NCBI GenBank assembly: GCA_027082825.1
Contig: JALWTO010000045.1
Coordinates: 1-48,963, forward strand
DNA from: Acidilobaceae archaeon
GTDB taxonomy: Archaea > Thermoproteota > Thermoprotei_A > Sulfolobales > Acidilobaceae
Length of the DNA: 48,963 bases
Direction of reading: 5' to 3'
Positions within the stretch are counted from its first letter, which is position 1, and each line of letters begins with the position of its first letter. A program made the position numbers and the translations under genes. The notes under the pieces were generated by a model. The model made no database searches. It was not told the origin of the DNA and saw only the letters and a program-made list of their open reading frames with translations. Of this stretch, positions 41,077 through 47,940 are shown one piece after another.

Positions 41077-42165
41077 ATGACGGCAAACGAAGAAAGCAAG
41101 CTTGTTAGGCTGAGGGATCACTTGGATGAGTTCCTAGCAGTATATGCTGGTATATCTATAGCTTTAGGATTAATCACTGGCTACTACAAGGCTGGATGGG
41201 TGACTATCCATAGACCATTAGTCAAAGAACTGGAGATGGCTGCGATAATGTTAATGATATTTCCAATGATGATAATGCTCGATATAGCATATTTGGGCAA
41301 GGCTTTCAAAAACTGGAAAGCTCTTACAGTTTCTTTGCTAATGAACTTTGGCTGGGGACCTTTGTGGGCAGTAATTTTGGGAGACCTCTTTCTTCATAAT
41401 CAATTACTTAAGCTAGGACTTTTTATAGCATGGCTTGTTCCATGTTCTTCAATGAGCGTAGGATATGTTGGTTTAATGAAAGGAAACATAGAGCTTGCGA
41501 CAGCCCTTGTTGTAGTTTCATTCCTAGTTGCAGTTCCACTAATACCTCTATACATAAAGCTTTATGGAGCCGCATATCATGTTATTGTGCCAACAATGGT
41601 TTTAATTAAAACTATCATCTTGGTGATAATAGCTCCCCTGATTGTTGGAGTGGCAATGCATGAGGCCTTAGTAAAACGTCTGGGCATGGAGAGGTTTAGG
41701 AGAATAAGCCCTCTATTTCCAACGATAACAATGCTAGGTATGTTCATGATAATTTTTGAGATATTCTTCGGAAGCTCAAAGATGATAATTACTTACATAC
41801 ATTCAGTCCTAGGAGTCTTCTACTCTGCCATGGTATTTGGAACAATATCACTAACCTTTCTAACATTATTCTTGAGAAGTATAAGATTTAAGTATAGAGA
41901 TGCCATGGCAACGTTGTTCCCTAGCATAGGGAAGAATGAGGGAACCGCTATAGCAATAGCTGCAACGGCCTTCTCTCCATTGGTAGCTATAGCTCCTGCA
42001 ACACTTCCAGTGTTTCAGGTAGTCTTCTTACTCACCTACATCAAGCTGAGATCAAGGATCATGAGCTTATACAGAGTGGGATCTGAGAAGGTGATCTTTA
42101 AGATAAAGAAGGTAGCACCAAAACCATTCACTCAAGCTATGCCAAATCATATCAGGCACAGTTAG
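41077..42165 (+). CDS. ACR3-like transporter (BASS superfamily, probable arsenite efflux)
   Basis: A 362-residue protein with about ten helices. L-V-P-C-S-S-M at about 125-131 carries the conserved Cys of the ACR3 substrate path. A second conserved region, I-G-K-N-E-G-T-A-I-A-I-A-A-T-A-F-S-P, corresponds to the family's N/E motif. ATG at 41077, shortly after an AATATTTAAG TATA-like box near 41024-41034. Other members of the bile-acid/Na+ superfamily cannot be excluded. An ArsR gene lies 940 bases downstream beyond the tRNA, not in the same transcript. Confidence 0.72.
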   Translation: MTANEESKLVRLRDHLDEFLAVYAGISIALGLITGYYKAGWVTIHRPLVKELEMAAIMLMIFPMMIMLDIAYLGKAFKNWKALTVSLLMNFGWGPLWAVILGDLFLHNQLLKLGLFIAWLVPCSSMSVGYVGLMKGNIELATALVVVSFLVAVPLIPLYIKLYGAAYHVIVPTMVLIKTIILVIIAPLIVGVAMHEALVKRLGMERFRRISPLFPTITMLGMFMIIFEIFFGSSKMIITYIHSVLGVFYSAMVFGTISLTFLTLFLRSIRFKYRDAMATLFPSIGKNEGTAIAIAATAFSPLVAIAPATLPVFQVVFLLTYIKLRSRIMSLYRVGSEKVIFKIKKVAPKPFTQAMPNHIRHS

Positions 42166-42428
42166 GGTTTTTCTAACAGTTTTCGGTTTGCATGCCTTTT
42201 TTAATTCCTTTCTAAGTTCTTCAACGTTCCTTTTGGCTATATCATTAAACAAAAAACTATTATTAATTCATCCTCATCATTTCATCTTGGTGACTCTTAC
42301 GGAGGCCTACAATGACCTAGGACAGAGAACGGTGAATGGTGTCTCCAGTACCTAGCTGATAGTGCTGGTATCCTGCTCAATGTTCAATCGAGAGGAGACG
42401 TATAGCAAGCGTATAACAGATCAAAGTC

Positions 42429-42481
42429 TAGATAATTGAGAAACTGGAGCCGCCGCCGGGATTTGAACCCGGGACCTCCGC
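42429..42481. repeat. 53-base direct repeat, copy 1 (3' half of tRNA-Thr plus flank)
   Basis: This exact sequence recurs at 43521-43573. It covers the 3' part of the tRNA-Thr gene (part of the anticodon stem, variable loop, T arm, acceptor strand, CCA) and about 16 bases beyond. Together with copy 2 it brackets about 1 kb. Direct repeats of tRNA 3' halves are what archaeal integrases leave, but no integrase gene is between them. Confidence 0.85.
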
Positions 42482-42520
42482 CTTACCAGGGCGGCGCTCT
42501 GCCAGCTGAGCTACGGCGGC
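42445..42520 (-). tRNA. trnT: tRNA-Thr (anticodon GGT)
   Basis: A full cloverleaf is readable on the minus strand. The acceptor GCCGCCG pairs with CGGCGGC, and the D arm is GCTC/GAGC. The anticodon stem is CCGCC/GGCGG around the seven-base loop CTGGTAA (anticodon GGT, Thr codon ACC). The T arm is CCGGG-TTCAAAT-CCCGG. Discriminator U and an encoded CCA end it. No intron. The whole right part of the gene (42482-42520) is unique, while the 3' part is duplicated at 43521. Confidence 0.95.
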
Positions 42521-42703
42521 ACAAGTTCCATAAAAGTCTCCATATAAAGCAAGATTTAAGAGTTTTTTCTTTGGATGTCCGTTTATTTGAAGAGCCTGAT
42601 TAACTGTGGTACATAACTTTCTGCATCGCCCTGTTGAGTGAAAAGTGTAGTCCAAGGAGCCTAGGGTGAGTAGTTTGGTTCTGAGAGAAACGTTTATATA
42701 TAG

Positions 42704-42721
42704 GGTAAATAACTATTTACC
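42704..42721. promoter_or_regulatory. inverted-repeat operator of the ArsR module
   Basis: GGTAAATA-AC-TATTTACC is a perfect 8+8 inverted repeat one base after a TTTATATATA TATA box (42693-42702), with a further GGTAAA half-site at 42724. The position covers the transcription start region of the small-membrane-protein/ArsR pair, so autorepression by the ArsR protein is likely. Confidence 0.65.
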
Positions 42722-42758
42722 TGGGTAAAAATATGTATAAAGGGAGGTGAGTCTTGAC

Positions 42759-43016
42759 ATGCCACCACCGCCTCTTGAATTAACAGGATGGATAGACTTC
42801 ATAATATGGGGAGCCGTGCTCCTCATAGTTGTTATTATTGCTATAGTACTTGCTGAATACATGTTTAAATGGCTAAGAGGTCTACAGTCAACACAGGCAA
42901 GGCTTCAGTCAACCTCAATAAACTCTTACGAGAATAAGGGCTATGAAGAGTTGCTACAGGAGATAAGGGCTTTAAGGAAGGAGATCCGCGAGTTAATGCA
43001 AGAGTTAAAAGAGTAA
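42759..43016 (+). CDS. small membrane protein with coiled-coil tail
   Basis: 85 residues from the ATG at 42759, eight bases after GGGAGGTGA (a GTG at 42747 is part of that signal). M-P-P-P-P-L-E-L then one helix (about 14-35, I-I-W-G-A-V-L-L-I-V-V-I-I-A-I). A Lys/Arg and Gln-rich linker follows, then a heptad-patterned acidic/basic helix to the end (L-L-Q-E-I-R-A-L-R-K-E-I-R-E-L-M-Q-E-L-K). Not recognised. It precedes the ArsR gene behind a shared operator, so the regulator likely controls it. Confidence 0.75.
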   Translation: MPPPPLELTGWIDFIIWGAVLLIVVIIAIVLAEYMFKWLRGLQSTQARLQSTSINSYENKGYEELLQEIRALRKEIRELMQELKE

Positions 43017-43104
43017 CTAGTTACCTAGAGACGAAATCAAGAACTTTTCTTAAAGTTATGAAATCTCTCCGTATCATATGAGGAGTTGTTGAGATGATGT
43101 AGCT

Positions 43105-43422
43105 TTGACAGAAAACAATGATACTAAAACCCTCGAAGACCTAGCCTTGGTGTTTAAAGCATTTGCTAATCCCACCCGACTTAAGATACTCGCACTATGT
43201 TCTTTACGAGAGATGAGCAGCAGGGAGTTGAGGGAGGCCCTAGGTATTTCGAAGCCCCTGCTTATAGCACATATACGCATCCTACTTAGAGCTGGCTTGC
43301 TCACTTACAAAGTTAAGGTGGATGAGGTAAGAGGAGTAGTAAGGAAATATTACAGAACAGCTAACTTTCACATATGTATGAGTAGAGAGTACTTAAGCAG
43401 ATTTCGTATGAGAACGAGATGA
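43105..43422 (+). CDS. ArsR-family transcriptional regulator
   Basis: A 105-residue winged helix. L-A-L-V-F-K-A-F-A-N-P-T-R-L-K-I-L is the ArsR opening. S-S-R-E-L-R-E-A-L-G-I-S-K-P-L-L-I-A-H-I-R-I-L-L-R-A-G-L is the recognition pair, and a wing follows with V-V-R-K-Y-Y-R. The ArsR metal motif (ELCVCDL) is replaced by L-C-S-L-R-E-M-S-S, so it is probably not a classical metal sensor. The C-terminus has one Cys (H-I-C-M). TTG start at 43105. Likely autorepressor at the 42704 palindrome. Confidence 0.88.
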   Translation: MTENNDTKTLEDLALVFKAFANPTRLKILALCSLREMSSRELREALGISKPLLIAHIRILLRAGLLTYKVKVDEVRGVVRKYYRTANFHICMSREYLSRFRMRTR

Positions 43423-43520
43423 GCCAACTCTATTTGTGCTGGTAGAATTCTTTAGGTATTTTGCTCCTGATTCTTTTCCTAACACCTTCATCGCCTTGAA
43501 CAAGTGCGAATCCATAGATT

Positions 43521-43573
43521 TAGATAATTGAGAAACTGGAGCCGCCGCCGGGATTTGAACCCGGGACCTCCGC
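43521..43573. repeat. 53-base direct repeat, copy 2 (tRNA-Thr 3' half alone)
   Basis: Identical to 42429-42481, same orientation. Unlike copy 1 it is not continued by the tRNA-Thr 5' half, so it is a partial tRNA. It marks the right edge of the ArsR module. Confidence 0.85.
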
Positions 43574-43650
43574 TCCCATAGGCCTCCAAACGACCTCAGG
43601 TATCAAGACCGTATGAGTCCGGCGCTTCTCCAGTAATTCCAAAGGGTCTA
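43574..43650 (-). other. tRNA-like degenerate sequence joined to the tRNA-Thr 3' half
   Basis: Read on the minus strand, a stretch containing AGCGCCGGACTCATA (at 43611-43625) precedes the duplicated Thr 3' half. In sense it resembles the D-arm-to-anticodon part of an elongator tRNA-Met (anticodon CAT), but no matching acceptor 5' strand or full anticodon stem follows, and about 35 unexplained bases lie in between. It may be a decayed or chimeric tRNA, a tRNA with an odd intron, or a half-gene. I cannot fold a functional tRNA from it. Confidence 0.35.
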
Positions 43651-43717: not shown

Positions 43718-44728
43718 TTATTTTTTCATATAAAGCCAACAGGCGACAAAATGACCTTTTTCTGCCATTACAAGTGGTGGTTCTTTCTTTCTACAAACTT
43801 CCATTGCATATTGACATCTTGGATGGAATCTGCATCCAGGAGGAGGATTGATGGGTGAGGGTGGTTCTCCAATGACCTCAACTTTAGGCTTCTTCTTAGC
43901 TTCAAACGGATCCGGAACAGGCATAGAGGCAAAGAGCATCTTTGTATAAGGATGTAAGGGCTTCTCAAACACTTCTTCTGCAGGTCCTAACTCGACTATC
44001 TTCCCCAAGTACATCACTGCTATGTAGTCACTCATATACCTAACAACACCAAGATCATGACTTATAAATAGATATGTAATGTTTCTCTTGGACTGAAGGT
44101 TCTTTAACATGTTTAATATCTGAGCCTGGACAGAAACATCTAGGGCACTTGTAGGTTCATCGAGTACTATAAACTCAGGCTCTAAGGCTAAGACTCTTGC
44201 AATTGCTATCCTCTGTCTCTGTCCACCACTAAACTCATGGGGATATCTGTAAAGGTGAGTTTCGTTTAGGCCAACCTCATAGAGGATATTTACAACAAAC
44301 TTCTGAGGATCATCTATCTTTATCCTATGAGCCTTTACAGGCTCCATTATTGTGTCGAATACCGTCATCCTTGGATCAAGGCTCATGTAAGGGTCTTGAA
44401 AGACCATCTGAGCCTTCCTTCTGAAGGCCATAAGCTTCTTTCCCCTAAGTCTGAATACATTATTTCCTTCGAAGTAAACATGACCTGACGTGGGTTCTAT
44501 AAGCCTAAGTACGAGTCTTCCTGTCGTAGTTTTACCACATCCACTTTCACCAACAAGACCTAATGTTTTTCCTTTAGGAACTATAAAAGATATACCATCA
44601 ACTGCTCTAACATATCCTGCAGTTCTAAAGATTCCTTTGACTGGAAAGTATTTCTTCAGATCAGCTACTTCAATCACAGGCTTTCCAAAAGTTGAGGTCA
44701 TATAGTTAATCAGCTCTTTAGCGTTCAT
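43718..44728 (-). CDS. oligopeptide/dipeptide ABC transporter ATPase, DppF-like
   Basis: A 336-residue ATPase. Walker A G-E-S-G-C-G-K-T-T, signature S-G-G-Q-R-Q-R and Walker B F-I-V-L-D-E-P-T-S-A-L-D, then switch His in F-I-S-H-D-L-G-V. The C-terminal oligopeptide-specific C-R-F-H-P-R-C-Q-Y-A-M-E-V-C can hold an iron-sulfur cluster. It pairs with the DppD ATPase encoded just upstream (overlap of four bases) to energise the DppB/DppC channel. The terminal position in the operon is usual. Confidence 0.95.
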   Translation of the reverse strand: MNAKELINYMTSTFGKPVIEVADLKKYFPVKGIFRTAGYVRAVDGISFIVPKGKTLGLVGESGCGKTTTGRLVLRLIEPTSGHVYFEGNNVFRLRGKKLMAFRRKAQMVFQDPYMSLDPRMTVFDTIMEPVKAHRIKIDDPQKFVVNILYEVGLNETHLYRYPHEFSGGQRQRIAIARVLALEPEFIVLDEPTSALDVSVQAQILNMLKNLQSKRNITYLFISHDLGVVRYMSDYIAVMYLGKIVELGPAEEVFEKPLHPYTKMLFASMPVPDPFEAKKKPKVEVIGEPPSPINPPPGCRFHPRCQYAMEVCRKKEPPLVMAEKGHFVACWLYMKK

Positions 44729-45735
44729 TTCCTTTCACCTCCTTTCTTAGTATAGAGCCAGCATGCCACCTTGTGGTTCTTCTCTATCTCAATCAGGGGA
44801 GGTCTTTTTTTGTCACAAGGATCAAATCTGTAAGGGCATCTTGGATGGAATCTGCATCCAGGAGGAGGAAAGATGAGGTTTGGAACGGTTCCGGGTATAG
44901 ATTCTAATGTGACATTCTTTCCTACATGTTTAGGAACAGCCCTCATAAGTCCTCTTGTGTAAGGGTGAAGAGGATTCTTAAAAAGCACCTCAACAGGTGC
45001 TTCTTCGACTATCTCTCCGGCATACATGACTGCAACTGTATCGCACATCTCAGCCACAAGCCCCATGTTATGGGTTATAAGAAGAAGGGTCAGATTCTCC
45101 TTCTTCTTAAGCTCCTTGAGGAAATCCATTATCTGAGCCTGAATAGTTACATCAAGAGCTGTAGTTGGTTCATCAGCTATTAACATCTTAGGTCTATTGG
45201 CAAGGCTCATTCCTATAACTCCTCTCTGTTTCATCCCTCCACTAAGCTCATGAGGGAACGCCCTAACTCTTGATTCTGGATCTGGCATCTTTGCTATTTT
45301 TAAGACATCTGCAGCCTTCTTTATTCCCTCCTTTATACTCTGAACAACCCCATGAAATGACATGGTCTCGGCAACATGATAACCTAAAGTATAAAGAGGG
45401 TCAAGAGCCGCACTTGGATCTTGAAATATATATGCCACATCATAACCTCTTATTCTTCTTACTTCGTCATCATTCAGCTTCATGATATCTATTCTCTTTC
45501 CAGGTTCTGGATAGAAGTATATCTCACCTTTTTCTATTCTTCCAGGAGACTTTATGAGCTTCGTTAGGGCTCTTGAGGTCACGGACTTTCCACAGCCAGT
45601 CTCTCCCACTAAACAATAAGTTTCTCCCCTACATATATCAAATGAAACTCCATTTATTGCCCTTACAACACCAGCATATGTATAAAAGTTTATATAAAGA
45701 TCCCTAACAACTATTATAGGATCTTTACATCTCAC
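44725..45735 (-). CDS. oligopeptide/dipeptide ABC transporter ATPase, DppD-like
   Basis: A 336-residue ATPase. Walker A G-E-T-G-C-G-K-S, Q-loop F-Q-D-P-S-A-A-L-D-P, signature L-S-G-G-M-K-Q-R, Walker B M-L-I-A-D-E-P-T-T-A-L-D, and the C-terminal C-R-F-H-P-R-C-P-Y-R-F-D-P-C. It is the first of the paired peptide-importer ATPases and overlaps the DppC stop and DppF start by four bases each. Confidence 0.95.
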   Translation of the reverse strand: MRCKDPIIVVRDLYINFYTYAGVVRAINGVSFDICRGETYCLVGETGCGKSVTSRALTKLIKSPGRIEKGEIYFYPEPGKRIDIMKLNDDEVRRIRGYDVAYIFQDPSAALDPLYTLGYHVAETMSFHGVVQSIKEGIKKAADVLKIAKMPDPESRVRAFPHELSGGMKQRGVIGMSLANRPKMLIADEPTTALDVTIQAQIMDFLKELKKKENLTLLLITHNMGLVAEMCDTVAVMYAGEIVEEAPVEVLFKNPLHPYTRGLMRAVPKHVGKNVTLESIPGTVPNLIFPPPGCRFHPRCPYRFDPCDKKRPPLIEIEKNHKVACWLYTKKGGERK

Positions 45736-46928
45736 TCTTCCTCACCCTCTTTTTTAGCTTTGGGTTTCTTCTTGAGTCTGAACTCTATGCTTCTTCTTGT
45801 CCTTGGATCTAAGATGTCTCTGAGAGTATCTCCAAGCAAGTTGAACCCTAATACTGTGAGCAGTATTGCTAGTCCTGGGAAGAACACCAGCCACCAGGCG
45901 GTTGGAAAATACTGTGAACCATCGTAGATTATTCTACCCCAGTCGGCTATTGGAGGAACTGCTCCAACTCCCAAAAAGCTTAAGCCTGCTTCAGTAAGTA
46001 TGACTCCTCCAGAGTCAAGCGATAGATATACCAATATAGGACCGAGTATATTTGGCAATATATGTCTGAAAAGTATGGAACCTGTTGAAATGCCTAAGGC
46101 TCTTGCAGCCTCAACATAAGTGTTCTCTTTTTCTGAAAGAACCATTCCTCTGACAAGCCTTGCGTAGCCTGGCCACCAAACTATCCAAAGAGCTATAATA
46201 ACTGACACTAAACTAGCTAAGGCACCTCTTTCTGATGGATGAAGCGCAAATATATGCAAGAAGAACGAATCTACCCAAGGATGAGTCTTGAGAAACAGAG
46301 ATATTCTAGACGGTAACACTGCTGAAAATGCAATTGCTAGGATTAAACCTGGAAATACCAGGAACATATCAGTTATTCTCATTATTGTTTCATCAGTGGC
46401 CCCACCATAGTAACCAGAGATTAGGCCAAGAGCCACTCCTATCCATGGACCTACCATGAGAACTAGTATCATAACCACAAAGCTTGTTCTTGCACCAAAA
46501 AGTATTCTACTCCATAGATCTCTGCCAAAACTATCTCCGCCAAGTATAAGTCTATAAGTTCCTGGTTTTACGCCTAAAGCCTCACAGCCATGAGGAATTT
46601 TAACTGTAGTTCCTGGAGGAGCTAGGTAAGCAGTATGATTACACAATGAAAGAGGAGTTCCATAACTAAATGGAGCTATCCATGGACCTACTATTGCGAT
46701 GATAATGAATATAGCTACTAAAACTGCTCCAGCCATACCTATAGGGCTTCTGTTAAATGCATAAAACATTAATTTCCATTCATCTATTCTTGCTTGGTTT
46801 CTTACCTTCCATCCTGGTCTTATTTTCTCAAATAAGTTGGCTAGAGCATCCAGAAATGCATCAGATACTCTATCGAGAACCTTCTTTTCATAAACCTCCT
46901 CGGCCTCTTTCGTAGCCATAACCTTCAC
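45732..46928 (-). CDS. oligopeptide/dipeptide ABC transporter permease, DppC-like
   Basis: A 398-residue permease, longer than most DppC (about 300). An N-terminal segment and a ~50-residue loop after the first helix (including C-N-H-T-A-Y-L-A-P-P-G and C-E-A-L-G) form an exposed insert seen in archaeal members. Helices 2-6 carry V-E-A-A-R-A-L-G-I-S-T-G-S-I-L-F-R-H-I-L-P-N, the EAA loop. The last 30 residues are a Lys/Glu-rich tail. It is followed by DppD with an ATGA-type overlap. Confidence 0.93.
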   Translation of the reverse strand: MKVMATKEAEEVYEKKVLDRVSDAFLDALANLFEKIRPGWKVRNQARIDEWKLMFYAFNRSPIGMAGAVLVAIFIIIAIVGPWIAPFSYGTPLSLCNHTAYLAPPGTTVKIPHGCEALGVKPGTYRLILGGDSFGRDLWSRILFGARTSFVVMILVLMVGPWIGVALGLISGYYGGATDETIMRITDMFLVFPGLILAIAFSAVLPSRISLFLKTHPWVDSFFLHIFALHPSERGALASLVSVIIALWIVWWPGYARLVRGMVLSEKENTYVEAARALGISTGSILFRHILPNILGPILVYLSLDSGGVILTEAGLSFLGVGAVPPIADWGRIIYDGSQYFPTAWWLVFFPGLAILLTVLGFNLLGDTLRDILDPRTRRSIEFRLKKKPKAKKEGEEE

Positions 46929-46929
46929 C

Positions 46930-47940
46930 TCAATATCTAACTCTAGGATCTATAACGGCATAGAGTATATCCACTATTAGGTTAACAGTCATATATATAA
47001 GTGCTATTACAAACACCCCACCAACCATGCTCAAGTAATCGGAGCTGTAAATGCTGGTGAGCATGAACCGACCCAAACCTGGAAGACCAAATATTGTTTC
47101 AGTAATGGGAGCTCCTCCTAGAAGGCCTCCAAATTGTAGACCAAGAACGGTAACTATTGGAACCATTGCATTTTTAAGTACATGCCTATACATCTGATTT
47201 CTAGGAAGACCTCTAGCATCAACATAATCTACGAAGTCGGATCCTAATGCATCTAAGAATGTATTTCTAACAAGCCTTGCAATTACACCTATTCCTGGAT
47301 ATGCTAATACAAGCGATGGGAGCCAATATCTCTTAATTACCTCAAGAAAAGTCCTTCCATCAAGTTTTAAGATAGAGTCTATAAGAGGTATACCAGTTAT
47401 GCTATAAGGAGGTGTCGGTGTCCCTGATAATGTTATCCAACCCAGTTTAGTGAAAAAGAGGAATATGAGAAGGTATGCTAACCAGAAAATTGGTACAGAA
47501 ACTCCAAGTAATGCTATGACTCTTATTGTAGCATCAATCCAAGTATCTTTTTTTAGAGCTGAAATTATTCCTAAAGGTATTCCAATAAGAGCTATAAATG
47601 TAAATGATATGAGGGTAAGTTGTATAGTTACTGGCATGTAAACTTTAATCTCATGCCAAACCTTATAGCTAGTAACAGGACTTACCATGGTATTCTCCAG
47701 AAAGCCTTTCATAAAGTAATAATATTGTATATAGAAAGGTTGGTCTAGATGATACTCCTTTATAAGCATTGCAACAACATGTTGGTTTGCTTTCTCTCCT
47801 CCTGCCCAGAGCCTTGCAGGATTCGCTGGAACAACAGCAGCTATGAGATATACAATAAAGGTAACTCCTATTAGGGTGGGTATAAATGTCAAGAGCCTCC
47901 TGATAAGAAACCTTTTCAATTCAGCCAATGGATGCCCCAC
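46930..47940 (-). CDS. oligopeptide/dipeptide ABC transporter permease, DppB-like
   Basis: A 336-residue protein with six helices. L-I-R-R-L-L-T-F-I-P-T-L-I-G-V-T-F-I-V opens it, the EAA-loop-like D-Y-V-D-A-R-G-L-P-R-N-Q-M-Y-R-H-V-L-K-N lies in the second half, and P-R-V-R-Y ends it, standard for DppB. It starts the permease part of the operon, 188 bases after the binding-protein gene and one base before DppC. Confidence 0.95.
   Translation of the reverse strand: MGHPLAELKRFLIRRLLTFIPTLIGVTFIVYLIAAVVPANPARLWAGGEKANQHVVAMLIKEYHLDQPFYIQYYYFMKGFLENTMVSPVTSYKVWHEIKVYMPVTIQLTLISFTFIALIGIPLGIISALKKDTWIDATIRVIALLGVSVPIFWLAYLLIFLFFTKLGWITLSGTPTPPYSITGIPLIDSILKLDGRTFLEVIKRYWLPSLVLAYPGIGVIARLVRNTFLDALGSDFVDYVDARGLPRNQMYRHVLKNAMVPIVTVLGLQFGGLLGGAPITETIFGLPGLGRFMLTSIYSSDYLSMVGGVFVIALIYMTVNLIVDILYAVIDPRVRY

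Follow-up and report, generated by a model that had tools for sequence, protein, structure and literature searches.

Sequence comparison within one archaeal genome showed that a solitary 53-bp copy of a tRNA-Thr 3' half is the end of an apparently dead, chimeric tRNA gene, a three-part mosaic. On the reading favoured, the two copies of the repeat do not represent paired att ends of a single element. On balance the relic is probably a by-product of an integron-like system that Desulfurococcales-type archaea would carry. The system would consist of tRNA-anchored, tandem and re-orderable 0.6-1.5-kb cassettes that have no integrase of their own and are mostly toxin-antitoxin pairs. Each would end in a family-specific three-site arm and a tRNA 3' half, and tyrosine integrases that target tRNA genes would mobilise them in trans.

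The window analysed was contig JALWTO010000045.1 (forward strand, positions 1 to 48,963; 48,963 nucleotides) of the Acidilobaceae archaeon assembly GCA_027082825.1, referred to as G000. The assembly (56 contigs, 1.30 Mb, 84% complete) was taken to be a MAG. Comparison genomes referred to by name are G001, of the same genus as G000, and G015, another member of the family.

Table 1. Features of the window and solitary tRNA 3' halves found elsewhere in G000.
Feature	Location	Strand	Evidence or content
SBF-family symporter	41077-42165	+	In G001 on another contig without tRNA
Repeat copy 1, tRNA-Thr 3' half plus 16 bases of 3' flank	42429-42481	-	
Intact tRNA-Thr(GGT)	42445-42520	-	ARAGORN; Rfam tRNA, 72.9 bits
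tRNA-Thr 5' flank (promoter side), conserved with G001	42521-42592	-	42445-42592 versus L064 8140-8287, 94%
ORF1, 89 aa, one apparent membrane span and charged helix	42747-43016	+	
ArsR-family regulator, 105 aa	43105-43422	+	HTH_5, E=8e-10
Repeat copy 2, end of chimeric pseudogene: solitary Thr-type 3' half with 16 bases of flank as in copy 1	43521-43573	-	
16-base block, intron 3' edge of two tRNA-Lys genes of G000	43569-43584	-	16/16 identical
tRNA-Met(CAT)-derived part: D-loop, D-stem 3' strand, anticodon arm, intron	43580-43633	-	51/54 bases identical
Oligopeptide/dipeptide-type ABC transporter genes (two ATPases, two permeases), conserved neighbour	43718-47940	-	
Four solitary halves, tRNA-Thr(TGT)	C38 (L165)		UPF0175 with DUF3368, PIN, TumE (Pfam)
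Two solitary halves	C42 (L166)		AF2212-like with PIN (Pfam)
Two solitary halves	C1 (L171)		ParE (Pfam)
Solitary halves, Arg	C26 (L167) and C48		C26: AF2212-like with PIN, PIN (Pfam); C48: DUF5678 and aspartyl protease
Solitary half, Arg	C31 (L169)		AF2212-like with PIN (Pfam); chimeric at C31:14878, Thr anticodon arm and Arg acceptor
Solitary half, Arg	C44 (L174)		UPF0175 with DUF3368 (Pfam)
Solitary half, Pro	C18 (L173)		PIN (Pfam)
Solitary half	C20		Chimeric at C20:21578, Arg with Thr
Solitary half	C3		

The repeat had been predicted from the sequence of the window, and both copies were recovered, exact and at the predicted positions (Table 1). An exact repeat of 53 bases far exceeds chance expectation. 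The copies are 1092 bp apart, start to start, within the spacing of about 0.6-1.5 kb of the toxin-antitoxin cassettes described below. Copy 1 lies, as predicted, inside an intact tRNA-Thr recognised by ARAGORN and Rfam, and neither program called a tRNA at copy 2. Copy 2 had been described simply as lacking its 5' half, but the adjoining positions 43574-43633 derive from tRNA-Met and tRNA-Lys genes of G000. The predicted reversed geometry, with the solitary copy on the 5' side of the intact tRNA-Thr, was found as well.

The relic occupies positions 43633-43521 of the minus strand and is composed of a tRNA-Met part, a 16-base tRNA-Lys-type block and the tRNA-Thr 3' half. The parent of the first part is the intron-containing tRNA-Met(CAT) gene of G000. 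The block (GGCCTATGGGAGCGGA) was restricted to G000 among the 21 genomes searched. The remainder (43573-43521) matches the tRNA-Thr 3' half, the discriminator base and 16 bases of the Thr flank at 53 of 53 positions. The relic is thus built from contiguous pieces of tRNA-Met, tRNA-Lys and tRNA-Thr genes of one genome, as expected of a chimeric tRNA pseudogene. No cloverleaf with acceptor and D stems was detected by ARAGORN or Rfam, and a functional or split tRNA was rejected for this reason. The tRNA-Met intron of G001 differs and the relic carries the G000 variant, from which it follows that the relic arose in the G000 lineage. That 3 of 54 bases are substituted relative to the live tRNA-Met argues against a misjoin of reads from that gene. 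The 3' halves of tRNA-Met and tRNA-Thr have an identical stretch of about 33 bp in common, so that one Met/Thr exchange explains most of the relic; the Lys block requires a second event. Around the intact tRNA-Met gene (C19), the genome-wide T-loop search revealed no other solitary half.

The predicted gene content of the block, a membrane-type ORF and an ArsR gene without integrase, was confirmed; by profile search, no integrase was found in the block or anywhere on the window contig. ORF1 had no Pfam family above the cut-off and matches in 3 of 60 genomes searched, G000 counted. Between the 53-bp copies, no toxin-antitoxin genes were found with Pfam. Two further repeated sequences were observed next to the block. 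A sequence of about 30 bases at 42302-42335 (CTACRATGACCTAGGAC core) recurs at G000 C33, C6 and C30 and at G001 C91, was absent from the rest of the 21 genomes, and is followed on its right side by diverging sequence. A stretch of 49 bases at 42176-42224 recurs with 94% identity at G000:C28:15208-15256, apparently intergenic at both places.

In G001 and G015, tRNA-Thr(GGT) adjoins the same ABC operon on the opposite strand, with the tRNA 3' end toward the operon. No ORF1, ArsR or relic was found at this locus in either genome, and the ORF1 and ArsR genes are missing from both genomes altogether. Clear ArsR relatives are present in G044, G056, G014 and G017, accompanied in G044 and G017 by an ORF1-like gene; no tRNA pieces were found near these ArsR relatives. 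In the comparison with relatives suggested with the original prediction, the block is missing in G001 and G015, but there is no clean empty site because their tRNA-Thr has the opposite orientation. The absence of the block genes together with the reversed tRNA-Thr strand in relatives marks the locus as a lineage-specific rearrangement.

The search for further copies of the core was productive. About 15 more solitary tRNA 3' halves were identified in G000 by T-loop search and site reading (Table 1), most of them at 0.7-2.4 kb from either another half or a full tRNA gene. In contrast to the window, halves with a full tRNA in the vicinity are on the 3' side of that tRNA. Several halves are chimeric between two tRNAs. 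The intervals between halves contain mainly toxin-antitoxin cassettes as classified by Pfam, with C48 and the last C38 interval as exceptions. The idea that tRNA 3' halves mark small inserts without integrase therefore holds elsewhere in G000, at other tRNA genes. Some tRNA-like sequences of G000 were noted separately. An isolated tRNA-Gln-type 3' half at about 3900-4010 of L172 (G000:C3:20900-21000) has neither arm sites nor a tRNA in its vicinity. It could represent the 3' portion of a tRNA-Gln(CTG) gene, otherwise not found in G000, that is split or rich in introns. A tRNA-Thr(TGT) (L019 763-850) and a probable tRNA-Arg(TCT) (L033 503-568) contain apparent extra D-arm sequence (noncanonical introns), apparently misread by tRNA finders.

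Many halves are preceded by a word of 6-8 bases at about -123 and about -70 and, inverted, at about -47, counted from the T-loop. The word varies by family (GTTTCA, GTTTCC, GTTGCA, TGTCCC), and the spacing is much the same. In a fixed-geometry test, 11 of 19 halves of G000 and G001 reached p<0.04 with a clear word; the G000 half C38:7031 also reached p<0.04, but with an AT-only word. Intact-tRNA sites had at least three mismatches in 58 of 60 cases. With five mismatches (p=0.93) in the same test, the window relic has no recognisable three-site arm. A search for arms on the cassettes' far (P') side gave no consistent pattern (13 seen versus 7 expected), and such sites were rejected.

About 85,000 species genomes were scanned with a pattern comprising only the two inner sites and the T-loop, resulting in 58 loci. 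Desulfurococcales-type or other Thermoproteota genomes accounted for 33 matches, 32 of them with complementary inner sites, and in 27 of these 32 the third site, which was outside the scan pattern, was present between -121 and -126 with no more than one mismatch. Most bacterial matches were to intact tRNA genes, and complementary inner sites were seen in about half. Desulfurococcales-type genomes thus show strong enrichment of the arm plus half signature. Among 68 ORFs upstream of the scan halves, Pfam assigned PIN (9), AF2212-like (8), HicA (2), HicB-like (2), TumE (1) and archaeal phage integrase (1); the 25 families listed for 58 ORFs located beyond 2.5 kb included no toxin-antitoxin family. 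Viral contigs gave two pattern matches, neither with complementary arm sites, and no relatives of two integrases were found in them.

Movement of the cassettes is indicated by three tRNA-Thr(TGT) loci. The order is tRNA, UPF0175/DUF3368, half, PIN, half, TumE and half in G000 (L165, C38), tRNA, TumE, half and UPF0175/DUF3368 in G001 (L276, C22), and tRNA, a different two-gene cassette, half and UPF0175/DUF3368 in a third genome (L224). The genomes share the UPF0175/DUF3368 segment at 89% identity, beginning from a point inside the tRNA 3' half. At the resolution of the tRNA gene, the loci represent filled and empty sites, and the position of the TumE cassette has changed. At tRNA-Pro(TGG), the flank past the G000 solitary half is 96% identical over 57 bp to the flank past the intact G001 tRNA. 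The filled and empty pairs and the re-ordered cassettes of sister genomes show cassette insertion at tRNA 3' ends. A Phage_integr_3 integrase is located directly behind tRNA-Arg(CCG) in G001:C178 (L273 719-2194), with TGTCCC repeats between them, and an Arg-type half on G001 C57 has arms made of the same word. Another integrase of the Phage_integr_3 family adjoins a half with GTTTCC arms (L205). From these associations we infer that the cassettes may be mobilised in trans by tRNA-targeting tyrosine integrases. A tyrosine integrase of 467 aa with an N-terminal helix-turn-helix was also observed directly behind tRNA-Val(CAC) (L158 5247-6815, G000:C28); it is likely part of an autonomous integrated element.

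For the window, the reading slightly favoured is a chimeric tRNA pseudogene produced by recombination in common tRNA 3' halves at a rearranged locus. Recombination, either homologous or catalysed by a tRNA-targeting tyrosine integrase, would have taken place inside the stretch common to tRNA-Met and tRNA-Thr. The chimera would be a product of this exchange, which would also have left direct copies of the tRNA-Thr 3' half on both sides of the acquired ORF1-ArsR pair. The wider cause is plausibly the tRNA-targeting recombination that put toxin-antitoxin cassettes behind many other tRNA genes of G000. The presence of tyrosine integrases in G000 and the chimeric nature of other solitary halves argue for this reading. 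Against it stand the missing arm sites at the relic, the lack of a further half near the tRNA-Met locus, the fragmented and incomplete assembly, and the Met/Lys joint, which lies on a 5-base shared word and is hard to explain by site-specific recombination. Among the earlier readings of the block, the best fit is with an odd tRNA duplication. Neither a minimal mobilised cassette nor the scar of an excised element is supported for this block, given the absence of arm sites, integrase and toxin-antitoxin genes and the solitary copy on the wrong side. A simple att pair was likewise rejected on geometry, missing arms and missing integrase; in SSV/pNOB8-type insertions the tRNA is followed on its 3' side by the element, with an integrase within it, and then by the solitary half, whereas copy 2 is 5' of tRNA-Thr. 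Tandem duplication would put the solitary half 3' of the intact gene. After an inversion by Met/Thr exchange in inverted orientation the chimera would face the other way, and the layout is not explained by inversion alone.

It is unlikely that the ORF1-ArsR pair is a site-specific cassette with the 53 bp as attP core, integrated beside tRNA-Thr, with the arm sites of the relic since decayed. The span of about 1 kb and the antisense gene orientation are those of most toxin-antitoxin cassettes, the pair is missing in relatives, and other solitary halves are chimeric too; yet with the solitary copy 5' of the tRNA, excision would remove the intact tRNA-Thr, and the pair occurs in G044 and G017 without tRNA pieces. 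Since arms and toxin-antitoxin genes are absent and the geometry is wrong, the block was not classed with the toxin-antitoxin cassettes, which it resembles in size and gene orientation only. Microhomology-driven template switching, at replication or reverse transcription, in which the relic was copied from Thr to Lys to Met (genes or precursor RNAs), would account for joints at the 5-base shared words GGCCT and GCGGA and for a copy that begins in the Thr 3' trailer and contains unspliced intron sequence. It is nevertheless rather improbable: a profile search of the incomplete MAG gave no RVT_1 reverse transcriptase, and a simpler account is a two-parent Met/Thr exchange within the 33 bases in common, together with a small conversion. 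A MAG misjoin at tRNA repeats might be suspected of a short exact repeat in a fragmented assembly, but the three substitutions in the Met-derived part indicate distinct DNA and the contig of 49 kb has ordinary genes on both sides of the block, which makes an artefact very improbable. An AT-rich promoter-like box (CTTAAATCTT) upstream of the relic, present upstream of tRNA-Thr too, would suit a split, permuted or regulatory tRNA-derived RNA with its own promoter. Such a function is hardly credible, with no acceptor or D-stem partner strand, broken anticodon arm pairs, and intact tRNA-Met and tRNA-Thr genes in existence.

Integrative elements of archaea leave tRNA gene fragments (van der Gulik, 2023, PMC9897764), and partial tRNAs are known in Aeropyrum pernix (Chan, 2011, PMC3218864). 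Like these, the relic is a 3' fragment near an intact tRNA in a hyperthermophilic archaeon; unlike them, it is a three-tRNA chimera located 5' of the intact gene, and neither an element nor an integrase separates the two. The tRNA-Thr(GGU) of Caldiarchaeum is disrupted by a pNOB8-type element (Sugahara, 2012, PMC3293823); the tRNA species is the same, fragment and intact tRNA form a direct repeat, and introns were captured by recombination, but there a recombinase gene lies between and the fragment is a 5' piece, whereas in the window no such gene separates the copies and the fragment is a 3' piece joined to tRNA-Met sequence. The pTN3 integrase was demonstrated to drive inversions at tRNA genes in Thermococcales (Cossu, 2017, PMC5495485), with tRNA genes at the rearrangement endpoints and exchange between different tRNA genes; for the window, such an exchange is a proposal. 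In Sulfolobus islandicus, vapBC and tRNA integration sites are associated with variable regions (PMC3718332). The G000 cassettes resemble integron arrays in being tandem and short, with a recombination site per end, a fixed anchor and re-ordering. Their sites, however, take the form of tRNA 3' halves with three-site arms where integrons have attC hairpins, their anchors are tRNA genes, and no integron integrase was identified for them with general integrase profiles. A search of the open-access literature yielded no account of arrays of toxin-antitoxin cassettes with tRNA halves as their boundaries.

The lesson of the window itself is of modest value: a repeated tRNA half need not be an att pair. 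The chimeric halves offer a natural route to the breaking, fusing and intron gain of tRNA genes. Hyperthermophilic archaea have very large numbers of toxin-antitoxin genes, whose spread there is, to our knowledge, poorly explained. Small tRNA-anchored cassettes with a common recombination signature would be a concrete, testable vehicle for it.
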